Positions 31,060 through 43,617 of a stretch of DNA of 64,000 nt are shown piece after piece. The DNA is from Rhodospirillales bacterium URHD0017 (GTDB lineage: Bacteria; Pseudomonadota; Alphaproteobacteria; Reyranellales; Reyranellaceae). The notes under the pieces were generated by a model, which ran no database searches, was not told the DNA's origin, and saw only the letters and a list, made by a program, of their open reading frames with translations. The position numbers and the translations under genes are program-made. The DNA lies in the NCBI GenBank assembly GCA_900110395.1, contig FODP01000009.1:62001-126000 (forward strand), in the 5' to 3' direction. The number at the start of each line of letters is the position of its first letter. Positions within the stretch are counted from its first letter, which is position 1.

Positions 31060-31962
31060 CTACTCCTCACAGCGCGCCGCCGCTCGTTCGGCGGCAGTGG
31101 TTGCCTCGGCGCTGGCCTGGGTCAGTCGGCCGCCATAGCCCGAGCGCACGGCGCCGATGGCGAATACGCCAGGTGACACCGTCTCGAAGTTCGCGTCGGT
31201 GATCACAAAGCCCCGCTCGTCGCGCGCGACGTCGGCGGGGACCAAGGCGGCATTGGGTTGCAGGCCGACGAACACGAACAGGCCGCTGCAGGCCACGACC
31301 TCGTCGCCACCCGCCTCGTTGTCGCGCACACGCACGCCTTCGACACCCTTGTCGCCCAGCACCTCGACGATCTCGCTCGCCCAGCGCAGCTTGAAGCGCT
31401 CGTCGTCGGCGACTCGCGACACGTAGCTGCGCCGCGCACGGAACATCTCGCCGCGCGTGACGATGGTGATCGAACGCGCGAACTCGGCCAGATGGATCGC
31501 CTCGGATAGGGCGGCATCGCCGCCGCCTGCCACCACCACCTCGGCGTCGCGATAGAGTCCGCCGTCGCACCAGGCGCATTGCGACACGCCGCGGCCGGCG
31601 AGCCGTTCGGCGCCCGGCACGTCGAGCGTGCGCAGCGAAGCGCCCGTGGCCACGATCACCTGCTTCGCCCGCCACGTGCCGTCCGGACCGCTCAGCGTCT
31701 TGGACTGGATTGAATCGATGCGCGAGGGCACCAACGAGACGCCGAGCTCCTCGTTGCGACCGAGCAGTCCCGCCGCCAGTTCGGCGCCGCCCACGGCGCC
31801 GACGGCCGGCCAGCCATCGAGCGCACCCACGTTCATCACCAGCCCGCCCGGCATGCCGTCCGCAATGAAGTGGCCGACCGAGACGCCGGCCAGCGCCGCA
31901 TGATGGGCGGCCGTGAGACCGGCGATGCCGCCACCGATCACTGCGATGTCGAAACTCGCCAC
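31060..31962 (-). CDS. Thioredoxin reductase-like FAD/NAD(P) oxidoreductase
   Basis: 300 residues. FAD motif GGGIAGLTAAHHA at 10-22, NAD(P) motif VVAGGGDAALSEA, and a redox-active Cys pair CAWC (129, 132) at the position of CATC in bacterial thioredoxin reductase. The C-terminal FAD contact reads AIGAVRSGYGGRLTQASAEA. It should reduce a disulfide or selenenylsulfide partner with NAD(P)H. It is the last gene of the operon that encodes the UGSC selenoprotein, 12 bases after its paralogue, making that protein a natural redox partner (inference). Confidence 0.88.
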   Translation of the reverse strand: MASFDIAVIGGGIAGLTAAHHAALAGVSVGHFIADGMPGGLVMNVGALDGWPAVGAVGGAELAAGLLGRNEELGVSLVPSRIDSIQSKTLSGPDGTWRAKQVIVATGASLRTLDVPGAERLAGRGVSQCAWCDGGLYRDAEVVVAGGGDAALSEAIHLAEFARSITIVTRGEMFRARRSYVSRVADDERFKLRWASEIVEVLGDKGVEGVRVRDNEAGGDEVVACSGLFVFVGLQPNAALVPADVARDERGFVITDANFETVSPGVFAIGAVRSGYGGRLTQASAEATTAAERAAARCEE

Positions 31963-31974
31963 GGGCTCTACTCC

Positions 31975-33195
31975 TTACTTTTCGACCAGGGCTGCTGCAG
32001 CTTCGCGCGCATCGGCGAGCAGTGCCGTCCAATCCGCCGGCAGGCGCACCTCGCGCGTGAGGCAGGCCGGCGGGAAGCCCCAAGAGGGGCAATAAGCGTT
32101 CTGCGGGATGGGAATGTCGCCGCCCGCGACCACCAGCACGATGTCGTCGGGCGAACGCGTGGCGGGAATGTCGCCCGCCTTGGCCGCTTCTTCCACCCAG
32201 TCCGGCCAGCGGCGGCCCGCGACGATGCGTTCGGTCAGCCAGGACGTCTGCCAGTCGTCGCGGTCCCACCGGCCGCGCTCCCACAGGAAGCGCCGCACGT
32301 CGTCCTTGCTCATGCCACGGCGCGCGCAGTCGGCTGCGACGGCGGGCGCGATCAGCACGGTCGGCCGGCCGCTCCACAGGATGCCGAAGCCGGAGGCCGC
32401 CGTGCCCATGACGCTTGCGATCTCGGCCAGCCCGCCGGTGACGTTGATCACGCTCTCCGCCCGCGTCACCGTGACCGCGCTCGTCGGCTGCAATGGCGCC
32501 CACGGGCTCTGCGCCTCGTTCTCGGCGAGGCAAAGCGTGTAACGGCCGGGCTGGCCGAGGCCGGCGAAGGCCACCGCGCCGGGCCAGCCGCCGCCGATAT
32601 TGTGCATCACCAGGCGCAGCGCGCGGCCGATTGCGGCGTTGGCCTGCCAGCCGGGACCGAGCGCGCCGAAGCTCGCATTGACACCGATCTCGCACGCCAC
32701 CGGACCGTTGACGATCAGCATCGGCGTCACGTTCTCGTCTGTGGTCTGCACGCCGCGCATGTTAAAGTCGGGATCGAGCACGCACTCCACGGCGGCTAGC
32801 ACCACCGGCAGGTATTCTGGCCGACAGCCCGCCATCACGGCATTGGCCGCGACCTTCTCGACGGTGGCGAGCCCTTTTAGCGGCTCGACCTCGCCCAGCA
32901 CCTCGGTCGGCGCGCGGTCGGTGAAGACGAGCGCCTGCTTCACCCGAGCCACGGTCGGCGGCACGACCGGCAGGCCATCGCTCCAGCCGCGCCGCAGGAA
33001 CAGCTCCTGCAGGCGATCTTCGGCGCGCGGTCCGCGCACGACCTCGATGCGCTGGCGCGGGAAGTCGGCGGCGAGCGGGACCTTGGCTGAATGCCCCTGC
33101 TCGGCGGCGCGCTGCTTCAGGGTGTCGTCGATCCAGCCGCCTGCAGCCTGCTGCCCCGTGGGCAGCACGATCCAGAGGCTGCCGTCATCGCTCAT
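31975..33195 (-). CDS. Paralogue of the selenoprotein C-terminal module, function unknown
   Basis: 406 residues from the ATG at 33195, which overlaps the selenoprotein stop (ATGA). Residues from about 70 align with the C-terminal module of the upstream selenoprotein: WSDGLPVVPPT, NAVMAGCRPEYLPVVLAA, a VNGP segment and a LCLAENE/VLAENE segment. It lacks the N-terminal UGSC redox domain. One conserved Cys remains in MAGCRPEY. No catalytic motif of a known enzyme is evident. The close pairing suggests a heteromer with the selenoprotein. Confidence 0.85.
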   Translation of the reverse strand: MSDDGSLWIVLPTGQQAAGGWIDDTLKQRAAEQGHSAKVPLAADFPRQRIEVVRGPRAEDRLQELFLRRGWSDGLPVVPPTVARVKQALVFTDRAPTEVLGEVEPLKGLATVEKVAANAVMAGCRPEYLPVVLAAVECVLDPDFNMRGVQTTDENVTPMLIVNGPVACEIGVNASFGALGPGWQANAAIGRALRLVMHNIGGGWPGAVAFAGLGQPGRYTLCLAENEAQSPWAPLQPTSAVTVTRAESVINVTGGLAEIASVMGTAASGFGILWSGRPTVLIAPAVAADCARRGMSKDDVRRFLWERGRWDRDDWQTSWLTERIVAGRRWPDWVEEAAKAGDIPATRSPDDIVLVVAGGDIPIPQNAYCPSWGFPPACLTREVRLPADWTALLADAREAAAALVEK

Positions 33196-34928
33196 CCTTG
33201 CGCTTCGCCGAGCTTCATGCGCCAGCCCTTTGGCAGCTTCACGCTCCTGGTGGTCGGGAAACCCAGCATGCCGTTGTGCACGAACAGATAGCAGTTCGAG
33301 CGCAGCGGATCGCCCGACACCGCGATCATGATGTGCTCGGGCTTGGTCACCACCGGCACCAGCCGGTTGGGATCGTTGCCGGCGAAGACCTTGGGGATCT
33401 TGCCGAGCCGCACCCAGTCGTTGAGCGTGCGCTTGCCCGGCACCAGGTTGGTCCAGCCCCACAGGTACTTCTCGAAGAGATGCGCCGGCATGCGCGCATT
33501 CTCGAACAGCCAGTTCTGGACGTCCTGCTTGGTCATGGTCTTGGCAATAGTCTCGGCGATCAGCGGGCTCAGCACCAGCAATGGCCGGTAGGTGCCGGTC
33601 GCCATGCCGACGGTGAAGATCACCTCCCAGCCGGAGTGCGTCACCAGCGCATTGCCGAGATAAGGCAGCAGCTTCTCCGCACTGTCGCCGAACACCGAGA
33701 CGATGACGTTGCCGCCGGTGAAGCGCGAGATGGTGACGGCGCTCTCCCCTGCCGGCGCGCCCATGTCGGCAGCAATCGTCGGCCACTTCATCCTGGCCAG
33801 GCTGTCCTCGTTCTCCGCCAGCACCACGCGCCAGGTGTTGCCGAACGTGCCCTTGTCGTTCTGGTGCAACAGGAAGCCCGCGACGTTGCGCAGGTAGAGG
33901 CGCCAGAAGCGGCCGATCGAGGTGTTGGGCTGGAAGCCGTCGCGCAGCGCGCCCTGCTCGTAGTTGAAGCCGAGCTGCTTGATCAGCGGCCCGTTCAGCA
34001 CGATCAGGGTCTCCGCCCCCGGCGTGTTGCCGGAGTGCTCGACGCCGTACTGCGGATCGGCCATCGCCTCGGCGAGCGCGACCAGGATCGGCATGTATTC
34101 CGGACGGCAGCCCGCCATCACGCCGTTGACCGCGACGTTCCACACCGTGGCCATGCGGTTGTCGGGCAGCAGCTTGCCGATCGCATGGTCGGGCGCGAGG
34201 TCGGTGAAGGCCAGGAATTCGGCGACCTTTTCCTTGGTCGGCGGCACGACCGGCAGGCCGTCGCTCCAGCCATTCTCGAGGAACAGCCGATTGACCTCCT
34301 CGAAGCTGCCCTCGAAGACGATGTCCTGCGGATCGGGATCGGCGGTGGCCCGCACCGCGGCGATCTCGCCCGTGAGGTTGCGGATCACGTGCTCGACCGT
34401 CGTGCCAAGCACGTTGCTGCGCAGCTCGTCCGACGTCTGCACGTCGACATGGCCCGGCACGGTCGCGAGTGCGAGGTTGGGATAGCCCAAACCCACCGAG
34501 GTCGTCTTGGCCTGGCCCAGAAAGCCCTCGCAACAAAGCGAGGAGGTGGGCACGCCGGCCTGTTCTGCGATGGCGCTGACCCGCAACACGGCGGGTGTAC
34601 AGCTTCCTCAACAGCCCATGCCGGAGACGACCGCGTCGATGTTCATCGACTTGATCTTCCCCGGCAGTTCGCTGAGCACGCGGTGTTCTTCGTCGCCATG
34701 CGTCGATCCGAACGCATCGTGGTCGACGAAGTTCACACCCGCGAAGCGCTGGCCGAGCTCCTGCTTGAGGATCGGCCAGATCTCGTCGCCGCGGAACAGG
34801 TCGTCCCACAGGAAGGCGATGGTCTTGCCGTCGAGCGCGTCCAGCCTCTTTGCCAGTGGCTTGATCTCCACCGCCTTGGCGCTGCGTGGCCACACCACGG
34901 CATAGTCACCGCTGTTGCGTCGAGTCAT
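33192..34928 (-). CDS. UGSC-family selenoprotein with in-frame TGA (Sec107) and fused C-terminal module
   Basis: 578 codons, one of which is TGA at 34610-34608. The frame is open on both sides: upstream DAVVSGMGC, then TGA, then GSCTPAVLRVSAIAEQAGVPTSS. This reproduces the U-G-S-C motif of the UGSC (seleno)protein family, so the TGA is read as selenocysteine. The N-terminal domain (KTIAFLWDDLFRGDEIWPIL to about 190) has the family's fold. The C-terminal 360 residues match the paralogue downstream. GAAGGAG precedes the ATG. Conventional gene callers would split it at the TGA. It requires SelA, SelB, SelD and tRNA-Sec elsewhere in the genome. Confidence 0.88.
34575..34610 (-). promoter_or_regulatory. 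Bacterial SECIS-like hairpin directly after the Sec codon
   Basis: Seventeen bases after the UGA the RNA forms a six-base apical loop CGUGUU, closed by the perfect stem ACCCGC/GCGGGU. A three-base 5' bulge (UAC) and a second perfect stem GCUG/CAGC follow below. Position, length, bulge and a G in the first two loop bases agree with the general bacterial SECIS model. It lies wholly inside the coding sequence, as expected in bacteria. Confidence 0.75.
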
Positions 34929-34958: not shown

Positions 34959-36260
34959 TCAGCCGCGCATCGTGGTCGGCAGCCACAGCGCGATTTCGGG
35001 CCACAAGCAGAGCAGGAGAATAACGAGCAACATCAGCCCGACGTAAGGGGCCGACCCTGCCGCCACCTCAGAGAATTTCGCACCACCTGATATGGCATGG
35101 ATCGTGAACAGGTTCAGGCCCACCGGCGGCGTGATCTGTCCGAGCTCGATCAGCACCGTGAGGATGACGCCGAACCAGATCAGGTCGAAGCCGAACGCCT
35201 TCACGACGGGCAACAGCACCGGCAGGGTCATGTAGATCATCGACACACCGTCGACGAAGCAGCCCAGCACGAGATAGAGCACGACCAGGGCGACGAAGAA
35301 CTGCCACTTGCCGAGCCCTAGGCCCATGACCCACTCGCTGACCGTCCGGCTCACACCGGAGTAGGTCAGCGCCGTCGACAGGATCTGGGCGCAGATGATG
35401 ATCAGCGCGACCATGCAGGTGGTCTTGACGGTCGCCATCAGCGATTCGGTGAACACCTTGCGCGTGAAGCTGCGATAGCCGAGCGCCAGGACGATGGCGC
35501 CGGCGGCGCCCAGGGCGGACGCCTCGGTCGGCGTAGCGATGCCGGAATAGATGCTGCCCAGCACGACGACGAGCAGGCCCAGCACGGGAAAGACATGGAC
35601 CGCTTCGCTGGCCCTCGACTTGCCGCTTGCCGCGTCGCGCGGCGGCGCATAGGAGGGCTTCATCAGCAGCAGGGCGGCGATGAAGACCATGAAGATGCCG
35701 GCCATCAGCAGGCCCGGCAGCACGCCGGCCATGAACAGGCGGGCAATCGATTCCTCTACCAGGGCGCCGTACAGCACCATGACGATGCTAGGCGGGATCA
35801 GGATGCCGAGCGTGCCGCCCGCGGCGAGCGAGCCGAAGACGGTCTTGGGCTCGTAGCCGCGCGACAGCATCTCGGGGATGGCGACGGTGCCGACCGTGGC
35901 CGCCGTGGCGACGCTCGAGCCGGACACGGCGGAGAACACCGCGCAGCTCGCGATGTTGGCATGCAGCAGGCCGCCCGGCAGGCGTCCGAGCAGGACCACG
36001 ACGCCGCGATAGAAATAGCTGCTGACGCCGCTGCGCAGGATGATCTCGCCCATCAGCAGGAACATCGGCACGGCGATCAGGATGTAGCTGTTCGCGTTGT
36101 TCCAGACGACCGACGACAGGGCGGTCAACCCGAGCAGGCCCTTGCTGAGATAGAGCACCAGCACACCGCAGATGCCGAGCGCGAAGGCCGTCCATTGGCC
36201 GGCCATCAGCATGACGGCGAGGCTTACCACCAGGATCAGGGTGAGGAGTTCCAGGTTCAT
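34959..36260 (-). CDS. dctM: TRAP transporter large permease (DctM)
   Basis: 433 residues with about 12 membrane segments. Typical DctM signatures are SGSSVATAATVGTVAIPEM, ILIPPSIVMVLYG and the C-terminal half beginning GIATPTEASALGAAGA and ending LIELGQITPPVGLNLF. It forms the sodium-driven transport core with DctQ. It is nine bases after dctQ and 30 before the selenoprotein gene. Confidence 0.95.
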   Translation of the reverse strand: MNLELLTLILVVSLAVMLMAGQWTAFALGICGVLVLYLSKGLLGLTALSSVVWNNANSYILIAVPMFLLMGEIILRSGVSSYFYRGVVVLLGRLPGGLLHANIASCAVFSAVSGSSVATAATVGTVAIPEMLSRGYEPKTVFGSLAAGGTLGILIPPSIVMVLYGALVEESIARLFMAGVLPGLLMAGIFMVFIAALLLMKPSYAPPRDAASGKSRASEAVHVFPVLGLLVVVLGSIYSGIATPTEASALGAAGAIVLALGYRSFTRKVFTESLMATVKTTCMVALIIICAQILSTALTYSGVSRTVSEWVMGLGLGKWQFFVALVVLYLVLGCFVDGVSMIYMTLPVLLPVVKAFGFDLIWFGVILTVLIELGQITPPVGLNLFTIHAISGGAKFSEVAAGSAPYVGLMLLVILLLCLWPEIALWLPTTMRG

Positions 36261-42451: not shown

Positions 42452-42991
42452 ATGAACGCCGAAACAAGCGCCGACTGGCGCGACGAGATCTTCGAGGTCC
42501 TGCAAACTCACGACATCAAGCAGGTCTATCACGTGCCCGATGCCGGCCATTCGCGGCTGATCGAGCATTGCCAGCGCTCGAACTCGATCCGCGTCGTGCC
42601 GCTTACGACGGAAGAGGAAGGCATCGCGCTTGCTGCCGGCGCCTGGCTGGGCGGCCAGCGCTCGGCGCTGCTGATGCAGAGCTCGGGCGTCGGCAACACC
42701 ATCAACATGATGGGGCTCACCAAGACGCTGCGCTTTCCGTTCCTGACCCTGATCACCATGCGCGGCGAGTGGGGCGAGTTCAATTCCTGGCAGTTCCCCA
42801 TGGGCCAGGGCACGCCCAAGGTGCTCGAGGCGATGGGCGTGCTGGTCTATTCGGTCGACAAGGCGAGCGAGGTGAAGGCCACGGTCGACGCTGCGGCGCG
42901 CGCGGCCTTCAACGGCGGCCAGTCGGTCGCCGTCCTGCTGCGCCAGAAGCTTATCGGCATCAAGGATTTCGGGAAGAAGACGAGCAAATGA
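42452..42991 (+). CDS. TPP-dependent decarboxylase, PYR-domain subunit (sulfopyruvate/phosphonopyruvate decarboxylase type)
   Basis: 179 residues covering only the pyrimidine-binding half of a TPP enzyme: HDIKQVYHVPDAGHSRLIEHC, the catalytic Glu in VVPLTTEEEGIALAAGAWLGG, LLMQSSGVGNTINMM. It resembles ComD, the alpha subunit of sulfopyruvate decarboxylase. It is encoded with its partner, overlapping by four bases (ATGA). The 2-oxoacid substrate is not defined by sequence. Confidence 0.88.
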   Translation: MNAETSADWRDEIFEVLQTHDIKQVYHVPDAGHSRLIEHCQRSNSIRVVPLTTEEEGIALAAGAWLGGQRSALLMQSSGVGNTINMMGLTKTLRFPFLTLITMRGEWGEFNSWQFPMGQGTPKVLEAMGVLVYSVDKASEVKATVDAAARAAFNGGQSVAVLLRQKLIGIKDFGKKTSK

Positions 42992-43617
42992 GCAATGGGC
43001 AAATGAGCAAGGCCACACTGCAGCGTCGTCCGCTGGTCAAGAAGATCCTCGGAGGCGCCGACGACGATCTTCTGGTGATCGCGGGCCTGGGCTCGTCGAA
43101 CTGGGATATCACCGAGGCGGGCGATCGCCCGCTCAACATGCCGCTGTGGGGCGCCATGGGCGCGCCAGTCAGCATGGGGTTGGGGCTCGCCCTGGCGCAG
43201 CCTGCCAAGCGGGTGCTGGTGATCACCGGCGATGCCGACCTGATGATGAGCCTTGGCTCGCTTGCCACGGTGGCAACGCAGCAGCCGGAGAACCTGGCGA
43301 TCGTCGTGCTCGACAACGAAAAGTTCGGCGAGACCGGCAATCAGGCCTCGCACACCAGCCCGCGCAACAACGGTCCGACCGACTCGGGCGCCGGCGCTGA
43401 CCTCGCCATGATCGCCAAGGGCTGCGGTATCGCCGATGTCGGCACCGTGCGAGACGCAAGCGAGGTGCCAGAGCTCGTCAAGGCGGCGCGCACCACGAAG
43501 GGCCCGGTCTTCCGCCTGGTCAAGGTGATCGTCGAGAAGCTCGAATTCGTCATGCCGCCGCAGGACGGCGCGCATCTGAAAGATCGGTTTCGTCAGGCGC
43601 TGCTGGGTCGCCCCTGA
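42988..43617 (+). CDS. TPP-dependent decarboxylase, PP-domain subunit (sulfopyruvate decarboxylase beta-like)
   Basis: 209 residues from the ATG at 42988. It holds the diphosphate-binding half with the TPP motif GDADLMMSLGSLATVATQQPENLAIVVLDNEKFGETG split across the protein. The GDG of the textbook motif reads GDA. Together with the upstream subunit it makes one complete decarboxylase, similar to ComDE. Its 3' end overlaps the convergent LysR gene by 25 bases. Confidence 0.88.
   Translation: MSNGQMSKATLQRRPLVKKILGGADDDLLVIAGLGSSNWDITEAGDRPLNMPLWGAMGAPVSMGLGLALAQPAKRVLVITGDADLMMSLGSLATVATQQPENLAIVVLDNEKFGETGNQASHTSPRNNGPTDSGAGADLAMIAKGCGIADVGTVRDASEVPELVKAARTTKGPVFRLVKVIVEKLEFVMPPQDGAHLKDRFRQALLGRP

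Follow-up and report, generated by a model that had tools for sequence, protein, structure and literature searches.

The minus strand of the 64,000-nucleotide stretch of Rhodospirillales bacterium URHD0017 analysed here (the window) carries a gene that is interrupted by an in-frame TGA and followed by two further genes, for a paralogue of its C-terminal domain and for a thioredoxin-reductase-like flavoprotein (Table 1). The initial annotation had taken the adjacent open reading frames 34928-34608 and 34589-33192 to be one and the same frame, and both the frame calls and the reading of the sequence itself confirm this: a single TGA, at 34610-34608, lies between them, and read-through from 34928 to 33192 yields a product of 578 amino acids in which the motif DAVVSGMGC-U-GSCTPA occupies residues 98-113. 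The start codon is the ATG at 34928, with a Shine-Dalgarno-like AAGGAG (34943-34938) 9 nt upstream, and the gene's own terminator, the TGA at 33194-33192, overlaps the ATG (33195) of the next gene in the sequence ATGA. That the motif at the TGA is the U-G-S-C motif of the UGSC family, and that homology continues on both sides of it, was borne out as well, as the Pfam UGSC profile matches across the TGA (E 5.8e-25) and the alignment of relatives extends over either side.

Table 1. Features of the UGSC fusion locus (positions in the window)
Feature	Position	Strand	Remarks
UGSC fusion selenoprotein gene	33192..34928	-	578 aa + stop TGA; joined frame, PF24696 match, homology on both sides
TGA codon for predicted selenocysteine 107	34608..34610	-	TGA in 79/79 relatives reaching the motif; Cys in distant homologues
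Putative SECIS apical hairpin ACCCGC-CGUGUU-GCGGGU	34579..34596	-	11 nt after UGA; invariant codons, closing-pair covariation
UGSC domain (residues 11-186)	34371..34898	-	PF24696; predicted Rossmann/flavodoxin-like
C-terminal partner domain	33195..34346	-	without Pfam/NCBIfam family; invariant Cys274 (NGVMAGC)
Stand-alone paralogue of the C-terminal domain, 406 aa	31975..33195	-	37% identity to residues 209-577; ATGA overlap with fusion stop
Thioredoxin-reductase-like flavoprotein, 300 aa, CAWC	31060..31962	-	PF07992 E 5e-33; TIGR01292 216.8 bits
TRAP transporter large permease, directly upstream of fusion	34959..36260	-	named by eye; same gene cluster in 16/80 loci

Membership of the N-terminal domain in the UGSC family is supported over the whole domain, the match to PF24696 covering profile positions 2-171/172 at 88.8 bits against a gathering cut-off of 25. 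The NCBIfam equivalog model NF041046, by comparison, gives 44.8 bits, far below its cut-off of 125; the protein is therefore assigned to a divergent, fused subfamily, and annotation relying on the NCBI model would miss the fusion gene. The expectation that standard annotation yields a broken gene finds its counterpart on the conjugative IncP plasmid p2-T1 of Acidovorax sp. T1 (L192, 5947-7497), where a UGSC fusion with an in-frame TGA is annotated merely as a 97-aa hypothetical protein and the remainder has no listed gene. UGSC selenoproteins and a UGSC/'Unknown_1' fusion were reported in 2008 (PMC2398784); recent reviews mention UGSC selenoproteins without a function (PMC13188914, PMC9312934), and our literature search found no paper that assigns one. 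The fusion gene joins these selenoproteins known since 2008 (PMC2398784) within the divergent fused subfamily. With the family (PF24696, NF041046, PMC2398784) it shares the full-length domain, the UGSC motif and a TGA-encoded selenocysteine (Sec). It differs in having a cysteine (Cys106) before the Sec and a C-terminal domain of 384 residues, and unlike many stand-alone copies, which read UGSC[TS]xC, it lacks a third cysteine.

The AF2 model of the protein (pLDDT 89.9, pTM 0.90) shows alternating strands and helices in the N-terminal domain, with Sec107 placed between the third strand (99-105) and helix 110-123. The best matches of this domain in VIA-align are of the Rossmann/flavodoxin type (Z up to 10.9), that is, generic and unspecific alpha/beta folds. 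A fold search with the whole protein returned poor global matches (FtsZ, fumarase), and a sequence search of the PDB with the family profile gave chance matches alone. The 2008 report groups UGSC with thioredoxin-like redox proteins and proposes a thioredoxin fold (PMC2398784); our model does not favour this proposal, though a ranked list of structural matches, among which no thioredoxin fold is listed, leaves it formally tenable.

A SECIS-like hairpin had been claimed to follow the TGA, and one is present, at 34596-34579. Its distance of 11 nt from the UGA equals that of the fdhF element in E. coli. Codon conservation was scored over 58 relatives in the 218 columns whose amino acid is conserved, and just four of these columns, residues 112, 113, 114 and 116, have a codon that never varies, all of them within the hairpin; as the relatives share ancestry, counts obtained by shuffling are no probabilities, and the weight of this result rests on the contrast between the four hairpin columns and the other 214. 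Moreover, the outermost, closing pair of the hairpin covaries (28 G-C, 16 A-U, 3 G-U and 5 unpaired; n=52), whereas slid controls show almost no such covariation. The folding energy of the hairpin taken alone is unremarkable (z -1.43), and an Rfam scan of the whole window gave no match. On evidence that is evolutionary and not energetic, the predicted hairpin is under selection at the RNA level.

For the codon itself, relatives were sought in a genome collection with patterns of the C-terminal domain, a search blind to the TGA, and 480 were found. Among the best 80 of these, every one of the 79 that reach the motif has TGA at the codon for Sec107. Their identities are 57-97%, and most of them are metagenome bins; they belong to Alpha-, Beta- and Gammaproteobacteria, Rokubacteria, Nitrospinota, Chloroflexi and Actinobacteria. 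Metagenome bins labelled Bordetella parapertussis and Klebsiella pneumoniae (L136, L142, L183) have UGSC loci resembling those of environmental Betaproteobacteria, and these labels look wrong. Viral contigs yielded no relatives. Exactly one TGA is likewise found in all five UGSC genes of the organism's own genome and in 74 of the 75 UGSC matches in a sample of its class. The one remaining match (G264, L042), the only one of the class without TGA, is of the Cys type, reading CGSC, although its genome has selB, and it offers a natural Sec/Cys comparison. More distant homologues without TGA, found in plasmid records, read CGSC in Haloterrigena, Halalkalicoccus and Variovorax and CSTC in Neorhizobium. 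Asked whether the TGA column holds Sec or Cys, the alignment thus answers with TGA throughout the close relatives and Cys in the haloarchaea, Neorhizobium and Variovorax, and, as read from these sequences, column 107 is Sec or Cys across the family. That the main clade has no Cys form suggests a chemistry dependent on selenium. The C-U-G-S-C redox centre that the initial annotation had proposed stands in part. Cys110 is invariant across the aligned relatives; Cys106 is shared by the 79 close relatives without exception, but deeper branches have Gly or Ser in its place, and for this reason only Sec107 and Cys110 define the family, Cys106 being a trait of the main fusion clade.

The machinery for selenocysteine, proposed as a check on the claim, is complete in the 8.18-Mb genome, whose nearest named relatives at the UGSC locus are Reyranella (97% protein identity). 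Contig C21 bears selA and selB together with tRNA-Sec (anticodon TCA, ARAGORN), which stands 32 bases after the selB stop, and selD is found on contig C29, all above curated cut-offs. Within the class sample, 27 of 28 genomes that bear UGSC have a selB above cut-off, as against 2 of 20 that lack UGSC (Fisher p 5e-10), and the single UGSC genome without such a selB is only 77% complete. In two betaproteobacterial loci (L159, L160) selA-selB lie less than 8 kb from the fusion, as does selB in a third locus (L137).

These data bear on other readings of the interrupted frame. As TGA is one base from TGC or TGT, a Cys gene might have become a pseudogene by nonsense mutation, or appear as one by a sequencing error; with TGA in all 79 of the motif-reaching relatives (best 80 of 480) across phyla and in five of five UGSC genes of the genome itself, and with a selected hairpin and the full Sec machinery, this reading would require one error common to all these assemblies and is in practice refuted, its probability being negligible. 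Only slightly less improbable is it that translation truly stops at the UGA and re-initiates at the GTG at 34589 to give a second protein. The frame is indeed open there, with the GTG 18 nt after the TGA. This reading is nevertheless rejected because the conserved motif G.C.P lies between stop and GTG, because the split would cut one predicted domain, and because a Cys codon carries the frame straight through in the relatives from haloarchaea, Neorhizobium and Variovorax. Finally, read-through, which the frame demands in any case, might insert another amino acid, be it Trp as in code 4 or the product of some other recoding. This we consider virtually inconceivable and reject, since tRNA-Sec, SelA, SelB and SelD are present, the homologues without TGA have Cys and never Trp in this column, and the gene itself terminates with TGA. 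The locus is almost certainly one intact two-domain UGSC-family selenoprotein gene and not two broken pieces. We hold it to be very nearly certain, from sequence evidence, that SelB and tRNA-Sec would insert Sec at the UGA at 34610-34608, under the direction of the hairpin that follows it after 11 nt; that an intact two-domain selenoprotein, hairpin-directed decoding and a Sec107-Gly-Ser-Cys110 active centre are jointly present is highly probable.

What, then, is the C-terminal domain to which UGSC is fused? It matched no family in Pfam or NCBIfam. Its sole invariant cysteine is Cys274, in the motif NxVMAGC. Modelled alone it reaches a pLDDT of 89.8, and its structural matches are weak (Z <=4.9). 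There is a weak resemblance to the fold of the class I fumarate hydratase alpha domain and cyanuric acid hydrolase (Foldseek E 3e-4, VIA Z 4.9), with an RMSD of 5-6 A and only one invariant Cys in the partner domain; we do not take it as a sign of membership. The association of the domain with UGSC is nearly without exception: in 117 of 118 copies UGSC is fused or adjacent to it, counted as 29 of 30 in the class sample and 88 of 88 domains in 80 genome loci, with L031 as the sole exception and with some genomes possibly common to the two sets. UGSC is the N-terminal part of the fusions, whereas stand-alone UGSC genes mostly follow the partner gene.

A paralogue of the partner domain follows the fusion gene in 51 of the 80 loci, and after it comes, in 41 of the 80, a thioredoxin-reductase-like flavoprotein with CxxC, the two genes mostly overlapping, often by 4 bases, or lying less than 40 nt apart. 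About half of the 80 loci, some of them cut short where a contig ends, lack the flavoprotein gene, as do most of the stand-alone UGSC loci in the organism's own genome. Another UGSC copy of this genome (G000:C48:487000-490500, L080) is accompanied by two partner-domain genes and by a flavoprotein gene that has diverged (184 bits). Among the Cys forms, Haloterrigena has the trio of UGSC, partner and flavoprotein, and the flavoprotein is also found near the Variovorax and Neorhizobium homologues. The plasmids of Haloterrigena and Halalkalicoccus (L193 and L194) both carry the Cys form with the partner domain, and in Haloterrigena the flavoprotein gene stands in the same order. Like thioredoxin reductase (TIGR01292), the flavoprotein of the present locus has FAD/NAD(P) domains and a CxxC (CAWC), but unlike the equivalogs of that model it stays at 216.8 bits against a cut-off of 343.45; by its sequence it would be a dedicated relative of thioredoxin reductase and not the housekeeping enzyme.

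Possible kinship with the Sec-containing reductases GrdB and PrdB comes from the surroundings of the motif. Class proteins matching Pfam GRDB read ...VDAVVLTPV-U-PVC...E..GIPT, and the fusion protein resembles GrdB/PrdB (PF07355) in having Sec-x-x-Cys after the strand that follows VDAV, then a helix and E..GIPT. A comparison of the UGSC fusions with the GRDB-matching proteins by hhalign scored 53.2 at a probability of 92% and aligned the Sec and resolving-Cys columns, over an alignment of 71 columns in which Cys was entered for Sec on both sides, which raises the score; 42 control comparisons with unrelated neighbour families reached at most 24.8, and with stand-alone UGSC alone the probability drops to 40%. 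PF07355 itself gave no match to the fusion protein at E <= 10. The motif of GrdB has been described as UxxCxxC (PMC13188914), and this pattern is shared by many stand-alone UGSC copies (UGSCSSC). Unlike the loci of GrdB and PrdB, that of the fusion has no recognised GrdA/GrdC or PrdA partners beside it and has another partner domain. A search of PrdB-like loci for the UGxC motif found none, because the motif there is UPxC, and a PrdB-like protein compared with PDB sequences had no solved relative. The relationship is probably one of remote homology, as far as profile comparison can tell, and not of membership. The genome itself encodes a second kind of selenoprotein, a GrdB/PrdB-like protein with an in-frame TGA (VPV-U-PACTRAV; G000:C15:87449-87667, L094).

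Clustering of the wider neighbourhood used codon-usage scoring; the longest ORFs in GC-rich DNA give shadow ORFs. The TRAP permease directly upstream of the fusion gene possibly serves substrate uptake. Genes that recur in the neighbourhood encode TRAP and tripartite tricarboxylate carriers, CoA transferases and MaoC-like hydratases, several of them named by eye. Elsewhere in the window, on the plus strand at 42452-43617, two adjacent short genes resemble, by eye, the subunits of sulfopyruvate/phosphonopyruvate decarboxylase.

We propose that the fusion protein is most likely a reductase that acts on a small metabolite through its selenol and would be fed from NAD(P)H via the flavoprotein. Its N-terminal alpha/beta domain would bear the active centre Sec107-Gly-Ser-Cys110 where the third strand ends. 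The C-terminal domain with its invariant Cys274 may, somewhat more probably than otherwise, contribute the second half of the active site, where it would bind the substrate with Cys274 close by. It is rather probable that the thioredoxin-reductase-like flavoprotein would hand electrons from NAD(P)H to the Sec107/Cys110 centre. With less confidence, we suggest that the Sec selenolate might reductively attack a small metabolite, brought in by the neighbouring transporters, in the manner of GrdB/PrdB, the oxidised Sec-Cys pair then being re-reduced. The main rival of a metabolite reductase is a genuine Sec protein that acts in detoxification, as a peroxidase or thiol-disulphide enzyme whose oxidised Sec is recycled by the thioredoxin-reductase-like protein. 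Such an enzyme would suit the UxxC motif, the neighbouring flavoprotein and the grouping of UGSC with thioredoxin-like redox proteins in PMC2398784. However, the model predicts a Rossmann/flavodoxin-like fold, the listed matches include no thioredoxin fold, and the neighbours are uptake systems and genes of acyl-CoA/carboxylate catabolism rather than stress genes. Moreover, Cys is never used in the main clade, which is unusual among peroxidases. We therefore regard the detoxification enzyme as unlikely, though not negligibly so.

In the literature searched, no mention was found of the partner domain, the operon with the flavoprotein, the haloarchaeal Cys version or the link to GrdB/PrdB. Quite tentatively, UGSC, its partner domain and the thioredoxin-reductase-like flavoprotein might constitute an undescribed three-part reductase system, remotely akin to the glycine and proline reductases, that would use Sec in Sec-using environmental bacteria and Cys in haloarchaea and reduce a small imported carboxylate or similar compound. 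The partner domain and the neighbouring reductase gene provide a first testable idea of the role of the UGSC fusion, and together with a probable fold and distant kin among reductases with a Sec nucleophile, the partner domain and the likely reductant gene make the function of UGSC directly testable.
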